DNA of 33,614 bases from Chitinophagaceae bacterium (lineage in GTDB: Bacteria; Bacteroidota; Bacteroidia; Chitinophagales; Chitinophagaceae): the NCBI GenBank assembly GCA_028288585.1, contig JAQBNL010000052.1, forward strand, positions 1 to 33,614, in the 5' to 3' direction. The position numbers were made by a program, and so were the translations under genes. The notes beneath the pieces were generated by a model. It had not been told where the DNA came from, searched no databases, and saw only the letters and a list, made by a program, of their open reading frames with translations. This document shows, one piece after another, positions 4,404-20,509 of this stretch (position 1 is the stretch's first letter; the number at the start of each line of letters is the position of its first letter).

Positions 4404-6851
4404 TTACTTTTTTTGATTTGCCTGGGTATTCATGTTTAATCTTTTCTCAATTGCATCTAATCTTGCTTCAGCATCAGAAACTTTTTGCTGGTATTTTTCT
4501 ATGATCTTCAAAAAATCATTATTCTGAACGCCGACCAATGTATTAACCATTTTAGGGCCATCAATATTTATTGTTTCCCAAGCCCTTCCTACCACGAGCC
4601 TGAAATCTTCAGTAGTCATTTGAGAGGTTTTAACAGCAACACCATAACCCGGGATATCTCCTTTAGCAACAATGAAATCACCTGTAGTAACAGCGCCAAT
4701 TATCTTAACCGGAATTTGGCCCATAAATGCTATGCTATTTCCAAATCCTACTTTGTCTTTATTAGGCATATTGGCATTAACAATAGGTTGGGTTGATACG
4801 GCCATAATTTGTTCAGCACCTTTAATGTCTTTAGTAATCTTTCCGCCTTTAACACCAACGATATCCCCGGCAGATATTGACTCTTCAAGATTTTCACGTT
4901 CCATCCATTCTGCATAATCTCCATTACCCGAAACATATTCAACGCCTAATTTATTATAGGTATGTCCCAGTTTATTAAATTCATTGGCCAGGTTAAGTAA
5001 TCCTTTTGCAATATCTATTCCTCCCACTGCGGATACAAGATGAAAAAGATATTCTTTACTAAAATAACGGTCGCTGAAATCGCCTATGGATTGTGCCCGG
5101 ATCACACCTAACACTCTCTCATCCTTATCAACAAACTTTACGAATTCATTTTTATTATTCAGTGAGTTTGCAACATCTGTTGTTTTAATATTAGGTGCGC
5201 CAATTGTTGGTAAACCACTACAATCAATCTGTGGTATGGCAGGTATTGTAAGCGCTACAGCAGGTATTGCCGGAATAGTTAGGTATTCTTTTGGAATCGC
5301 AGGTATTTCAAGCTTTGGCAAAATAGGTACAATTTCCGTTTTAGAGATAAGCGTAAACCCATGAAGAAGTGTTGTTTTAGGAAATAAAGTGGTTTTACCA
5401 ATAATGTCAAAGCTACCTAAGCTACCAACGCCAACACTTAATGCAGGTAATTCAACTGCTGGCATATCAACATCAGGAATTGAATACGGTCCTAAATTAA
5501 TAGGAAGATGCAATCCATCATTGATAGGTTTTGTTAAGTCTAAAGGAAGATTTAATTTATCATTAATGGGAGTAGCTAAGTCCAAGGGTAATCCTAACTT
5601 CTGATTAATGGGAGTGGCTAAATCCAAAGGAAGTCCGAGCTTTTCATTTAAGGCAGGGGAAATAGCATTTGTTAACTGGCAAAGTGCGCCGCCAAGAAAT
5701 TCTCCTGTGTTTTTAACCAAAGACCATACATCACCTGATGAAATACTTACCTGCTTAGTTTTTACCCACCCTTCAACCAAAGTTATTTGCTCTTGAAAAG
5801 CATGATACACCGGGTTGAAATCATCTACCTCGATGCTTTCATATTCGGTTCCATTCCACATTGGATGAATACGGCCAAGCTTAATTTTTAATCCATCACC
5901 TTCACCTGTATTTGTATTTGTTATTGTTGCAACAAAGCCGCTGCTATCACCTTTTATATTAAGGCTTGTTGCTTTAACATCGTTGGTTACTGCAAGACTG
6001 TTTAAAGTAGAAGAGCCATTAACTTTTAAATTTCCTCCAACATTTAAGTTTTTTGCAATGCCAACACCACCATCAACAACCAGTGCGCCATCAGTTATAG
6101 TATTTGATTGGGCAATATTTTTTAAATGAGTCAGGCCGTTTATATCTGTTGTTGTACCACTCACTGTATTCAGCGTAACATTTTTATTTACAGTCAGGTC
6201 ATTTGCTACAACTACATTTCCGTTAGCTAAAATTCTTATCCTCTCAGTGTTGTTTGTTACCAAAAGAAGATCAACAAAATCGCCTGTACCCAGTTTATCT
6301 TTTGCAGGATTAGAACCAACATTCCCCTTTAGAGACCAGTTGGCAGAGGGTGATGTACTTGTGGTATTTGTAGAGCTGCTCGTTGTGGAAGTAGTTGTAA
6401 CTGCAGATTCTGATGTGCTGGTAGCATTATCATCAGATAGCTTTGCTGCGGTTCCGGCATGAAACGCATATGGTACAGCAAGCAATTTGCTGTTGCTGAT
6501 GGTCATAAAATCTGATTGACCTTTGTCTTTTATAGCAACCTGCATCCAAATATCAGCTGTACTCCATGGAATATCAGCAAATTTTCCTTTTTCAATTTTA
6601 CCTTCGCCTATAGTTAAGGAAAATAAACCAACCTGGTTAGTAGTTACCGCATGTGTTTCACTATAATATATTACAGAACCCCTGTTATCCTGGGTTAATA
6701 AATTAATTTTTAAAGTGATGGATTGATTAACCAATACATTTCCCGAAAGATTCCTGGCAACAGCCTGGTATTTCATGCCTTGCGGAACATGTTGTGCAAA
6801 AGAAAGAACAGCGCAAAATAAAATTGTAAGCAGAAAGAAAAATTTTTTCAT
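4404..6851 (-). CDS. Large secreted fibre-like protein with 14-residue tandem repeats
   Basis: The 815-residue protein has a signal peptide (1-19, cleavage after SFA). Residues 20-135 form the N-terminal domain common at the head of Bacteroidota surface proteins (MKYQAVARN to LLAVPYAFHAGTAA). A Ser/Thr-rich linker (143-170) follows, then a region with tail-fibre character (VDGGVGIAKNLNVGGNLKVNG, 258-279). Four tandem copies of about 14 residues of the type KLGLPLDLATPIN lie at 403-454, then IPAIP repeats (516-541). The C-terminal domain (about 640-775) contains GDYAEWMER and SAGDIVGVKGGKI, resembling the chaperone-like or autoproteolytic C-terminal domains of phage tail fibres (inference). 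A coiled coil ends the protein (780-806). It is probably a trimeric or filamentous surface structure. No T9SS sorting domain is seen; the upstream gene has one. Confidence 0.75.
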   Translation of the reverse strand: MKKFFFLLTILFCAVLSFAQHVPQGMKYQAVARNLSGNVLVNQSITLKINLLTQDNRGSVIYYSETHAVTTNQVGLFSLTIGEGKIEKGKFADIPWSTADIWMQVAIKDKGQSDFMTISNSKLLAVPYAFHAGTAAKLSDDNATSTSESAVTTTSTTSSSTNTTSTSPSANWSLKGNVGSNPAKDKLGTGDFVDLLLVTNNTERIRILANGNVVVANDLTVNKNVTLNTVSGTTTDINGLTHLKNIAQSNTITDGALVVDGGVGIAKNLNVGGNLKVNGSSTLNSLAVTNDVKATSLNIKGDSSGFVATITNTNTGEGDGLKIKLGRIHPMWNGTEYESIEVDDFNPVYHAFQEQITLVEGWVKTKQVSISSGDVWSLVKNTGEFLGGALCQLTNAISPALNEKLGLPLDLATPINQKLGLPLDLATPINDKLNLPLDLTKPINDGLHLPINLGPYSIPDVDMPAVELPALSVGVGSLGSFDIIGKTTLFPKTTLLHGFTLISKTEIVPILPKLEIPAIPKEYLTIPAIPAVALTIPAIPQIDCSGLPTIGAPNIKTTDVANSLNNKNEFVKFVDKDERVLGVIRAQSIGDFSDRYFSKEYLFHLVSAVGGIDIAKGLLNLANEFNKLGHTYNKLGVEYVSGNGDYAEWMERENLEESISAGDIVGVKGGKITKDIKGAEQIMAVSTQPIVNANMPNKDKVGFGNSIAFMGQIPVKIIGAVTTGDFIVAKGDIPGYGVAVKTSQMTTEDFRLVVGRAWETINIDGPKMVNTLVGVQNNDFLKIIEKYQQKVSDAEARLDAIEKRLNMNTQANQKK
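5490..5645 (-). repeat. Tandem repeat of about 42 bp encoding a 14-residue unit
   Basis: Four in-register copies encode K-L-x-L-P-L-D-L-x-x-P-I-N-x. Copies 1 and 2 are nearly identical; copies 3 and 4 are more diverged (LPLDLTKPIN, LPINLGPYS). It lies inside the fibre-like gene. Confidence 0.8.
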
Positions 6852-18172: not shown

Positions 18173-18622
18173 TTGGATAAAATACACTTTCATGAATTAG
18201 ACATCACCTTCTCACTTTTGCATAGGAGGGATTTAAAAAAATTTCTTCTTGACATGTTCAAAAAAGAAAAGAAAGAAGTAGATAGAATTGATATTATTTT
18301 TTGTACTGATAAATATTTATTGCACCTAAATAAAAAATATTTAAATCATAACTACTATACTGATACTCTAACTTTTCTTCTTTCTTCTTCCAATAAATCA
18401 ATTACTGGGGAAATATATATAAGTATAGAAAGAATTAGAGCCAATGCAAAAAGCCTAAAAATTTTACCCCGGCTGGAGCTTATACGTGTAATTATTCATA
18501 GCTGCCTACACTTATGCGGTTATTTAGACAAACCCCAACGCGAATTCTTAAAAATGGAAAAAATACAGGAAGCTTACCTTCAACAATGGGGTGTTTCACG
18601 TGAAACTCAAATTGGAGGTTAA
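18173..18622 (+). CDS. ybeY: Endoribonuclease YbeY (rRNA maturation)
   Basis: YbeY is a zinc-dependent endoribonuclease needed for 16S rRNA 3' maturation and ribosome quality control. The 149-residue protein has YTDTLTFLL (61-69) and TGEIYIS, then the metal site IHSCLHLCGYLDK with H109 and H113. The third His of the classical HGxLHLxGYDH motif is replaced by Asp/Lys (D119-K120), as I recall for other Bacteroidota YbeY. There is no ATG: the first usable start is TTG at 18173, with an in-frame stop 12 codons upstream. The last codons (VSRET) are written in a parS palindrome. It is followed by mnmG after 24 bp. Confidence 0.9.
   Translation: MDKIHFHELDITFSLLHRRDLKKFLLDMFKKEKKEVDRIDIIFCTDKYLLHLNKKYLNHNYYTDTLTFLLSSSNKSITGEIYISIERIRANAKSLKILPRLELIRVIIHSCLHLCGYLDKPQREFLKMEKIQEAYLQQWGVSRETQIGG
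18592..18607. promoter_or_regulatory. parS-like ParB binding site
   Basis: TGTTTCACGTGAAACT matches the bacterial parS consensus TGTTTCACGTGAAACA at 15 of 16 positions, and its 14-bp core GTTTCACGTGAAAC is a perfect palindrome. It sits in the 3' end of ybeY, coding VSRET, about 40 bp before mnmG. Chromosomal parS sites cluster near the origin. Confidence 0.8.
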
Positions 18623-18642
18623 ACCACCTTCGAGTAATTTTG
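18612..18642 (+). promoter_or_regulatory. Candidate promoter of mnmG
   Basis: TTG (18612-18614), a 20-nt spacer and TAATTTTG (18635-18642) match the Bacteroidota consensus. The -7 element ends 4 nt before the mnmG ATG, so the transcript would be leaderless or nearly so. Read-through from ybeY is the alternative. Confidence 0.45.
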
Positions 18643-18646
18643 TTGA

Positions 18647-20509
18647 ATGTTTCCAACTTACGATGTTATTGTAGTCGGTGCCGGCCATGCTGGCTGTGAG
18701 GCCGCAAGCGCCGCTGCAACTTTAGGCAGCAAGGTTTTGTTAATTACTATGAATTTGCAGACAATAGGGGAAATGAGTTGTAATCCAGCTATGGGTGGTA
18801 TAGCTAAAGGGCAGATAATAAGAGAAATAGATGCTTTTGGTGGATATAGTGGGATCGTAACGGATGAGACCATGATTCAATTTAGAATGTTAAACAAGAG
18901 TAAAGGCCCCGCAATGTGGAGTCCCAGGGCTCAAAGCGATCGGAATCTGTTTTCCCGAAAATGGAGAGAAATTTTAGAACATAACTTAAATATTGATTTT
19001 TATCAGGATATGGTCGTTGGTCTTATAAAAACTGAACAGACAATATCAGGCGTAAAAACAAGATTGGGACATGAAATTCGATCAAAATCCGTGGTTTTAA
19101 CCAATGGAACCTTTCTAAATGGAGTAATTCATATAGGCGAAAAACAAATGACTGGGGGAAGGGTTTCTGAAAAAAATTCTACAGGAATTACAGAGCAATT
19201 GCAAGGTTGGGGATTTCAGAGTGAGCGCCTCAAAACCGGTACCCCACCCCGAATAGATGGCAGAAGCCTGAACTATGCCAAACTTGATATTCAAGAAGGA
19301 GATAAAGATATAAAGGGCTTCTCTTTTACTAATACCAAAAAGCCGTCAATACAGAAAAATTGTTGGATAGCTTATACAAATAAAAAGGTACACCAAGTTC
19401 TTGAAACCGGTTTTAGTAAAAGTCCGATGTTCCAAGGCCGAATTCAGGGGGTTGGGCCGAGGTATTGCCCCAGTATAGAAGATAAAATCACCCGGTTCTC
19501 AGAAAGAGAACGTCACCAACTATTCATAGAGCCTGAAGGGTGGAATACAATTGAAATATATATTAATGGATTTTCATCATCTCTGCCTGAAACTGTTCAG
19601 TTTCAAGCACTTAGAGAAATTATTGGATTTGAGAATTGCAAAATGTTTCGTCCTGGTTACGCTATTGAATACGATTATTTTCCTCCAACGCAACTAAATT
19701 CTACCCTGGAAACTAAGCTAATCAACAATTTATTCTTTGCTGGCCAAATAAATGGTACTACAGGGTATGAAGAAGCTGCCTGCCAGGGATTAATGGCAGG
19801 AGTTAATGCTCATCAAAAAATAAACGATCTTGAGCCGGTTATACTAAAAAGGAATGAGGCATATATTGGAGTCCTAATAGACGACCTTGTAAATAAAGGC
19901 ACGGACGAACCATATAGGATGTTTACAAGCAGGGCAGAATTTAGAACCTTATTACGCCAGGATAATGCCGATATCAGGTTAACAGAAAAAAGTTATCGAA
20001 TAGGTTTGGCATCTCAGGAAAGAATAGAAAATGTCAGAAATAAAAAAGAATGTGTGTTAGAAATAAAAAAAATTCTGGACGATTTTATTTTTGACATTAA
20101 TGAAATAAATTCATATTTAGAGAACATAAATTCAGCCCCTTTAGATCAAAAGCAAAAGGCTTCTCAATTAATATTAAGACCTTCAATAAATTTGAGTGAT
20201 ATGATGAAAGTGAGTGCTTCTTTAAATTCTTATTTAAAAAATTATGACCCCGAAACTCTTGAACAGGCAGAAATTCAATTGAAATATGATATTTACATTC
20301 AAAAGGAAAAAGAACTTGTAAGCAAAATGAGTACTCTTGAAGAACAGGTTATACCCGATAGTTTTAATTATGACAAAATACTTTCTCTTTCTAACGAAGC
20401 CAGACAAAAATTCAATAAAATCAGGCCACAAACTTTAGGACAAGCCAGCCGTATAAGCGGAGTAAATCCCAGCGATGTACAGATTCTTATGGTTTATATG
20501 GGCCGCTAA
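18647..20509 (+). CDS. mnmG: tRNA uridine-5-carboxymethylaminomethyl synthesis enzyme MnmG
   Basis: MnmG (GidA) is the FAD protein that, with MnmE, installs the 5-carboxymethylaminomethyl group at wobble uridine 34 of certain tRNAs. The 620-residue protein has the FAD-binding loop GAGHAG (11-16), SCNPAMGGIAKG with the catalytic Cys (C45), TGTPPRIDGRS, VGPRYCPSIEDK and the C-terminal helical domain that binds MnmE (ending RISGVNPSDVQILMVYMG). Length is normal. It shares the modified base with MnmH, encoded in this window, which acts on position 2 of the same wobble uridine. A parS-like site and a promoter-like sequence lie directly upstream. Confidence 0.97.
   Translation: MFPTYDVIVVGAGHAGCEAASAAATLGSKVLLITMNLQTIGEMSCNPAMGGIAKGQIIREIDAFGGYSGIVTDETMIQFRMLNKSKGPAMWSPRAQSDRNLFSRKWREILEHNLNIDFYQDMVVGLIKTEQTISGVKTRLGHEIRSKSVVLTNGTFLNGVIHIGEKQMTGGRVSEKNSTGITEQLQGWGFQSERLKTGTPPRIDGRSLNYAKLDIQEGDKDIKGFSFTNTKKPSIQKNCWIAYTNKKVHQVLETGFSKSPMFQGRIQGVGPRYCPSIEDKITRFSERERHQLFIEPEGWNTIEIYINGFSSSLPETVQFQALREIIGFENCKMFRPGYAIEYDYFPPTQLNSTLETKLINNLFFAGQINGTTGYEEAACQGLMAGVNAHQKINDLEPVILKRNEAYIGVLIDDLVNKGTDEPYRMFTSRAEFRTLLRQDNADIRLTEKSYRIGLASQERIENVRNKKECVLEIKKILDDFIFDINEINSYLENINSAPLDQKQKASQLILRPSINLSDMMKVSASLNSYLKNYDPETLEQAEIQLKYDIYIQKEKELVSKMSTLEEQVIPDSFNYDKILSLSNEARQKFNKIRPQTLGQASRISGVNPSDVQILMVYMGR

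Follow-up and report, generated by a model that had tools for sequence, protein, structure and literature searches.

In the ParABS system of chromosome segregation, a ParB dimer recognises the two GTTTCAC half-sites of a palindrome, parS, and is loaded as a clamp dependent on cytidine triphosphate (CTP). A wide survey of parS sites is said to have been made by Livny et al. in 2007. According to the available passages of a study of 12 gut strains, two of them Bacteroidetes, parS lies near the origin given by GC skew and this origin is not always at dnaA (PMC10197239), so that origin-side parS is already known in Bacteroidetes. The present work concerns a 33,614-nucleotide stretch of bacterial DNA (contig JAQBNL010000052.1 of assembly GCA_028288585.1; hereafter the window) with a parS-like palindrome at the junction of the genes ybeY and mnmG. 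The nearest named relatives of the window are metagenome assemblies of Chitinophagaceae and Chitinophagales; the family of the organism is therefore inferred to be Chitinophagaceae.

In the gut Bacteroidetes parS clusters at the origin, a position near the skew origin that it shares with the closed relatives of the window, and the available passages of that study contain neither the ybeY/mnmG place nor alternative elements (PMC10197239). Among the matches listed by searches of open-access full texts, which mostly do not include subscription papers, there was no account of parS at ybeY/mnmG and none of its replacement by an HNH gene.

The palindrome at the ybeY/mnmG junction

The site, TGTTTCACGTGAAACT (18592–18607, no strand assigned), matches TGTTTCACGTGAAACA at 15 of 16 positions and contains a perfect 14-bp core palindrome at 18593–18606, exactly as the initial annotation had stated. 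It is the only match in the window with up to 3 mismatches, a loose threshold at which shuffled sequences give 0.15 matches on average. From base composition, the exact 14-mer is expected 0.00013 times in the window and 0.012 times in the 3.3-Mb genome, in agreement with the earlier claim that a chance match was very unlikely. In a genome-wide scan for the 16-mer, the site at 18592–18607 is the sole one with 0 or 1 mismatch, and the next best is a single site with 2 mismatches. Additional copies in the genome were sought at up to 3 mismatches and rejected as mostly noise (26 sites versus 15 in the reversed control).

Because of its sequence, its uniqueness, the conservation of both site and place, the presence of ParA and ParB, and the agreement of its position with the skew origin of closed relatives, we consider that the palindrome at 18592–18607 is very probably the chromosomal parS, that is, the centromere, of the window bacterium, with predicted binding of ParB. 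The interpretation put forward in the initial annotation is thereby supported. By the known mechanism, ParB would load at this single site and spread over the mnmG region, and ParA would separate the sister copies shortly after initiation at the nearby origin. The site shares with the chromosomal parS of described ParABS systems the sequence, the palindrome, the ParA and ParB encoded in the genome and, in relatives, the position at the skew origin. It differs from them in being single-copy and within the 3' end of ybeY, with parAB on another contig and not beside mnmG.

The parA and parB genes are adjacent on contig C86 of the window genome, parA being named by eye. The C86 ParB is recognised at 4.2e-53 and has ParB_N, HTH_ParB and ParB_C domains, and ParB is present in all of the 147 family genomes analysed. 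A genome devoid of parB, which would have spoken against the original proposal, is thus not what was found: the parAB pair is chromosomal. A second, weaker ParB-like gene on contig C22 (locus L017, G000:C22) adjoins a gene that by eye is DNA-methylase-like, and is perhaps on a mobile element.

The gene ybeY (18173–18622, + strand) is an open reading frame coding for an endoribonuclease (Pfam YbeY, 2.2e-22). Its last codons read through the site in frame as VSRET, as had been claimed; the frame ends QWGVSRETQIGG-stop, that is, WGVSRETQIGG-stop. The site is presumably tolerated as coding sequence since the end of YbeY permits variation.

Conservation of the site and its place

The exact 14-mer GTTTCACGTGAAAC is present in 13 of 20 sampled genomes of the genus, including that of the window (reversed control, 0), and in all 13 it is at the ybeY/mnmG junction. 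The 15 loci taken from these genomes all have ybeY within 1.5 kb, and 14 have mnmG; at the fifteenth the contig ends. The other seven genomes of the genus comprise three with GTTYCACGTGRAAC at the same place, one (G007) with the HNH cassette described below and three without a match to mnmG.

The site recurs at the same ybeY/mnmG junction across the family. Cultured Chitinophagaceae with canonical sites include Ferruginibacter paludis and Niastella populi. Among the 147 genomes, the exact 14-mer is found in 35 and GTTYCACGTGRAAC in 106, with reversed-control matches in 2. When 48 loci were cut from 45 of these 106 genomes, 47 had mnmG and/or ybeY within 1.5 kb, the sole exception being L044 of genome G122; the motif thus adjoins ybeY/mnmG in 44 of the 45 examined genomes. 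There are 41 family genomes without GTTYCACGTGRAAC. Five of them (G048, G060, G075, G114 and G130), like the genus genomes G006, G009 and G010, have no mnmG found at E ≤ 1e-100, and 12 carry an HNH gene and a composite element upstream of mnmG. The remaining 24 include 21 with a 1-mismatch site upstream of mnmG and three (G058, G061 and G087) with no site of up to 1 mismatch there. In the phylum sample, the motif is present in 184 of 198 genomes (9 in the reversed control); 27 new loci were cut from these, of which 21 are beside mnmG or ybeY. If these are centromeres, the centromere of a large and little-studied group is tied to one gene junction.

In the window and in the related loci L218 and L219, the 14 bases are identical while the codons just upstream differ. 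The first parS site overlaps ybeY in 18 of 53 named loci, in differing frames. Since the frames differ and the flanking codons have changed, what is conserved at the junction is, on the sequences compared, the DNA and not the peptide. The initial annotation had taken loss of the palindrome at synonymous positions in close relatives as evidence against itself: L218 and L219 retain the palindrome, but it is lost in the nearest relative, L217, where it is replaced by another element and a gene.

A chance product of codon usage would be conceivable in the tail of YbeY, which is free to vary and in which the match is read in frame. However, the expectation of 0.012 per genome, the recurrence at one junction in each of the 13 genomes of the genus that carry the exact 14-mer, and the invariance of the 14 bases among varying codons make this explanation vanishingly improbable, and we regard it as already refuted by the comparative data.

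Two named loci, L238 and L261, carry two copies each of GTTCCACGGGGAAC, with neither canonical parS nor an HNH gene; these copies are possibly drifting sites left after loss of the HNH cassette.

Position relative to the replication origin

Cumulative GC skew was calculated from sampled 20-kb stretches, spaced 170–245 kb apart, on five contigs (G124, G040, G036, G162 and G001). At this resolution the minimum coincides with the site in G124, G040 and G036, and in G162 the site is within a broad minimum. In 400 contiguous kb of G040, the minimum (637.4 kb) is 6 kb from the nearest site (631.4 kb). The densest DnaA-box cluster of that stretch, at 640.3–640.6 kb and 9 kb from parS, sits in a gap between genes that by eye are nadA-like and secreted-peptidase-like. 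This cluster (G040:C1:640268-640580, locus L207), 3 kb from the fine skew minimum, is likely to be oriC.

The dnaA gene was rejected as a marker of the origin: it is 0.4–3.0 Mb from parS in nine single-contig genomes (1.9 Mb in G036, 1.4 Mb in G040, 1.8 Mb in G124 and G127, 3.0 Mb in G067 and 0.4–0.8 Mb in G121, G162, G122 and G115). That parS rather than dnaA marks the origin in these relatives fits what the available passages report for gut strains (PMC10197239). In draft genomes for which dnaA is a false guide, the junction may make it possible to locate the origin. Concerning the earlier proposal that the locus is near oriC, the skew minimum in four closed relatives agrees with it; for the genome of the window itself, it stands by homology only. 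A place near the terminus, the contrary outcome, is not what the skew indicates, the minimum being at the locus in the closed relatives.

Several observations weigh against the identification of the palindrome as the chromosomal parS. The whole-genome scan found no second site with up to 1 mismatch in the window genome, and there is no DnaA-box cluster within the window. The window assembly consists of 98 contigs, and proximity to the origin is inferred there from relatives. The same-genus contig, G001, has a shallow skew minimum, which is weak and compatible with the site. Six of the 27 phylum loci are away from mnmG and ybeY, five of them in family f2 of the same order and one in f9. As for the lack of other parS-like sites, which the initial annotation had listed as unfavourable, nothing else within 1 mismatch was found, but a single site is common among the relatives.

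The gene downstream of the site (18647–20509, + strand) is an open reading frame with MnmG relatives that starts 40 bp past the parS core; we take it to be mnmG (gidA), the name given in the earlier reading. The spacer between the two (18608–18646, + strand) contains TAATTTTG at 18635–18642 and TTGG at 18612–18615, which resemble a promoter of the Bacteroidota type. Two segments of the spacer, AAATTGGAG and GTAATTTTGT, are retained in L218 and L219.

The location of the palindrome just upstream of this promoter-like element raises the alternative that it is an operator of mnmG, bound by a transcription factor and similar to parS by coincidence. The motif nevertheless matches the parS consensus, and its position is that of the skew origin. 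Some sites are inside ybeY, others are intergenic and others coincide with the start of an inserted CAP gene. When GTTCCACGTGGAAC variants are included, the motif occurs in up to nine copies, which in the genomes listed are mostly clustered within a few kb. An operator is on these grounds very improbable.

The HNH-fold gene and the composite element

In L217, the nearest relative of the window (89 per cent MnmG identity), an HNH gene at 5357–5971 and a composite element replace parS at the ybeY/mnmG junction. The same replacement is present in 14 other named loci and in family genomes G052, G069, G071, G077, G078, G092, G097, G101, G132, G153, G156 and G157. All named records with the HNH gene are metagenome assemblies. 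The gene was not found in the window genome. Of the 147 family genomes, 13 carry it in near-full-length form, and none of these 13 has a canonical parS at any place; among 392 genomes of the phylum it was found in 2, both Chitinophagaceae. Four partial matches (E 4.5e-5 to 6.2e-4), in frames of about 520 residues in G033, G072, G105 and G147, were counted as another family; these four genomes do have canonical parS. In G087 the HNH gene (G087:C29:1329-1931) and mnmG are on different contigs; neither parS nor the composite was found upstream of mnmG, and the genome has no composite within 1 mismatch.

Canonical parS and the HNH gene exclude each other in the loci examined. There are 80 named mnmG loci, 26 of them without GTTYCACGTGRAAC. 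Four (L241, L252, L259 and L277) were excluded because their upstream sequence is too short, L241 containing a truncated HNH match; the remaining 76 and the window give 77 rows. With the composite scored at up to 3 mismatches, 15 rows have the HNH gene and the composite without parS, 53 have parS alone, eight have none of the three and one (L231) has parS and the composite (Fisher p = 1.4e-10 for exclusion of HNH and parS). A quick tree of MnmG requires at least 12 changes of the HNH state, gain and loss not being distinguishable. In eight independent, well-supported pairs, parS changes opposite to HNH in 5–7 and never in the same direction (median p 0.03), and the composite changes together with HNH in 7–8 (median p 0.016).

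The inserted gene codes for a protein of about 205 residues. The AlphaFold model of the L217 protein (predicted local distance difference test, pLDDT, 85; predicted template modelling score, pTM, 0.67) has matches among predicted endonucleases, viral HNH and intron-encoded (best E 3.8e-8), and weak ones among solved HNH domains; as modelled, the protein has the HNH (beta-beta-alpha) fold. Sequence searches added little. No Pfam family was above the cut-off for the two members scanned, no NCBIfam family was found for the first member and only weak unrelated ones among the other 14, and a search of solved-structure sequences gave two weak, unrelated matches. Weak PHROG matches to HNH families were obtained with phrog_7030 (three members) and phrog_6050 (one member). 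No relative was confirmed in viral contigs (two peptide patterns, 55 stretches) or found in plasmids (one query protein).

The composite can be written GTTYCACG-NNN-CMC-N-GTTTC-N5-GAAAC: a parS half-site (GTTYCAC) and, at a distance of 15 bp, a GTTTC-N5-GAAAC dyad. When up to 1 mismatch is allowed, 12 of the 147 family genomes contain it (reversed control, 0). In eleven of the 12 the HNH gene is at ybeY/mnmG, and all composite matches of these genomes lie at that junction; the HNH-bearing genome G052 has a composite with 2 mismatches. In the twelfth, G112 (C42:57280-57309), canonical parS is followed by the dyad and there is no HNH gene. When the half-site is not required, all 25 HNH-bearing regions contain the 5-bp-spaced dyad, with 38 dyads over 21 kb, and 36 of the 38 have GTTYCAC at exactly -15 on one of the two sides. 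The dyad is present in 8 of 85 HNH-less regions, with the half-site in one of the eight, five of them being parS with one extra base; a 2-Mb background contains five dyads, none with the half-site. The pattern was derived from the loci first counted, so that the genome-wide and half-site-free counts are less circular. The dyad count left out G007, G052 and G071, which duplicate named HNH loci, and the genus regions G019, G012 and G017, which duplicate named HNH-less ones.

About nine genomes (e.g. L235, G101 and G153) have a symmetric composite, in which the two parS halves are split with the dyad between them. In L231 and G112, an intact parS is at the composite register to the dyad and the HNH gene is absent; these arrangements are possible intermediates. 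A change of ParB specificity was examined as the cause of parS loss and rejected: by the criterion applied, no alignment column separates the ParBs of 12 HNH-bearing genomes from those of nine others, two of which (G160 and G146) have 1-mismatch sites only. Close relatives thus differ in whether they keep or have replaced a very widely conserved DNA element, with little difference in ParB.

According to the available passages of PMC7022226, the heptamers GTTCCAC and GTTTCAC are by themselves sufficient for binding by several ParBs but not by others. The same heptamer is in the composite of the relatives; the half-sites described there are scattered, with narrow peaks, whereas the half-site here is tied to a second dyad and an HNH-fold gene (PMC7022226). 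The switch between Noc and its binding site, NBS, is likewise a case of an altered site among ParB and Noc systems, as far as the available passages of PMC7383237 go. In that case the protein changed, whereas here the 12 ParBs are not consistently different from the other nine.

We tentatively propose that the ybeY/mnmG junction of Chitinophagaceae is an exchangeable centromere locus. In a minority of species, among them the nearest relative of the window organism, the HNH-fold protein would assist the loading of ParB at the composite. The protein, which would derive from a selfish endonuclease, would bind the GTTTC-N5-GAAAC dyad and would load an unchanged ParB at the half-site, thereby substituting for the missing half of parS. 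The composite centromere would consist of one ParB half-site, or of two split apart, at a fixed 15-bp register to the dyad. If it is a working centromere, ParB can be loaded with the aid of another protein, one that stems from a selfish element, and the arrangement would be a novel design for a centromere in bacteria. The closely related species pairs make this model directly testable.

The gene might instead be an active homing endonuclease that targets parS, the composite being an altered parS resistant to cutting. The fold, which matches predicted intron-encoded and phage HNH proteins, is in line with this, as is the fact that the gene occupies the place of parS, canonical parS being present in 0 of 15 named HNH loci. 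The catalytic D–H pair is retained in 12 of the 15, the others having EH (L222), EN (L288) and SQ (L292). The gene also shows signs of lateral transfer: the L217 protein is 72 per cent identical to those of L235 and L236 (MnmG 73–75 per cent, YbeY 40–44 per cent), compared with a median of 45 per cent for pairs with MnmG identity below 75 per cent, which suggests that it may have moved between lineages. On the other hand, L288 and L292 have lost the D–H pair yet keep their composites. In ten pairs of HNH genes the non-synonymous divergence, dN, is 0.12–0.25 and the synonymous divergence, dS, is 0.96–2.6 in eight and saturated in two; dN/dS is about 0.07–0.13 in the eight pairs with estimable dS, indicating purifying selection. 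The composite is, moreover, positively specified by a 5-bp-spaced dyad and a half-site at exactly -15. We regard active homing as unlikely.

Equally doubtful is the notion that the composite is simply the operator of the HNH gene, with ParB using unrecognised sites or not working. The element is just upstream of the gene, and in G092, where the gene is inverted, composite copies are on both sides. However, ParB is retained without consistent change in its DNA-binding helix, its half-site is kept in the composite, and the place and copy number of the composite mirror those of parS. Nor do the 13 family genomes with the HNH gene have a canonical site at any other place.

Other arrangements were noted at the junction. 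In seven loci (L219, L247, L254, L271, L272, L284 and L290), a TGA within parS is the stop codon of ybeY. A CAP-domain gene with parS at each end is present between ybeY and mnmG in L228, L247, L257, L272, L278, L284, L286 and L290, the domain having been checked by Pfam for L228 alone. The mechanically called start codon of this gene falls inside the first parS (MFHVK or VK). CAP-like genes are also found at the junction in seven genomes without canonical sites, in three of them alongside the HNH gene.
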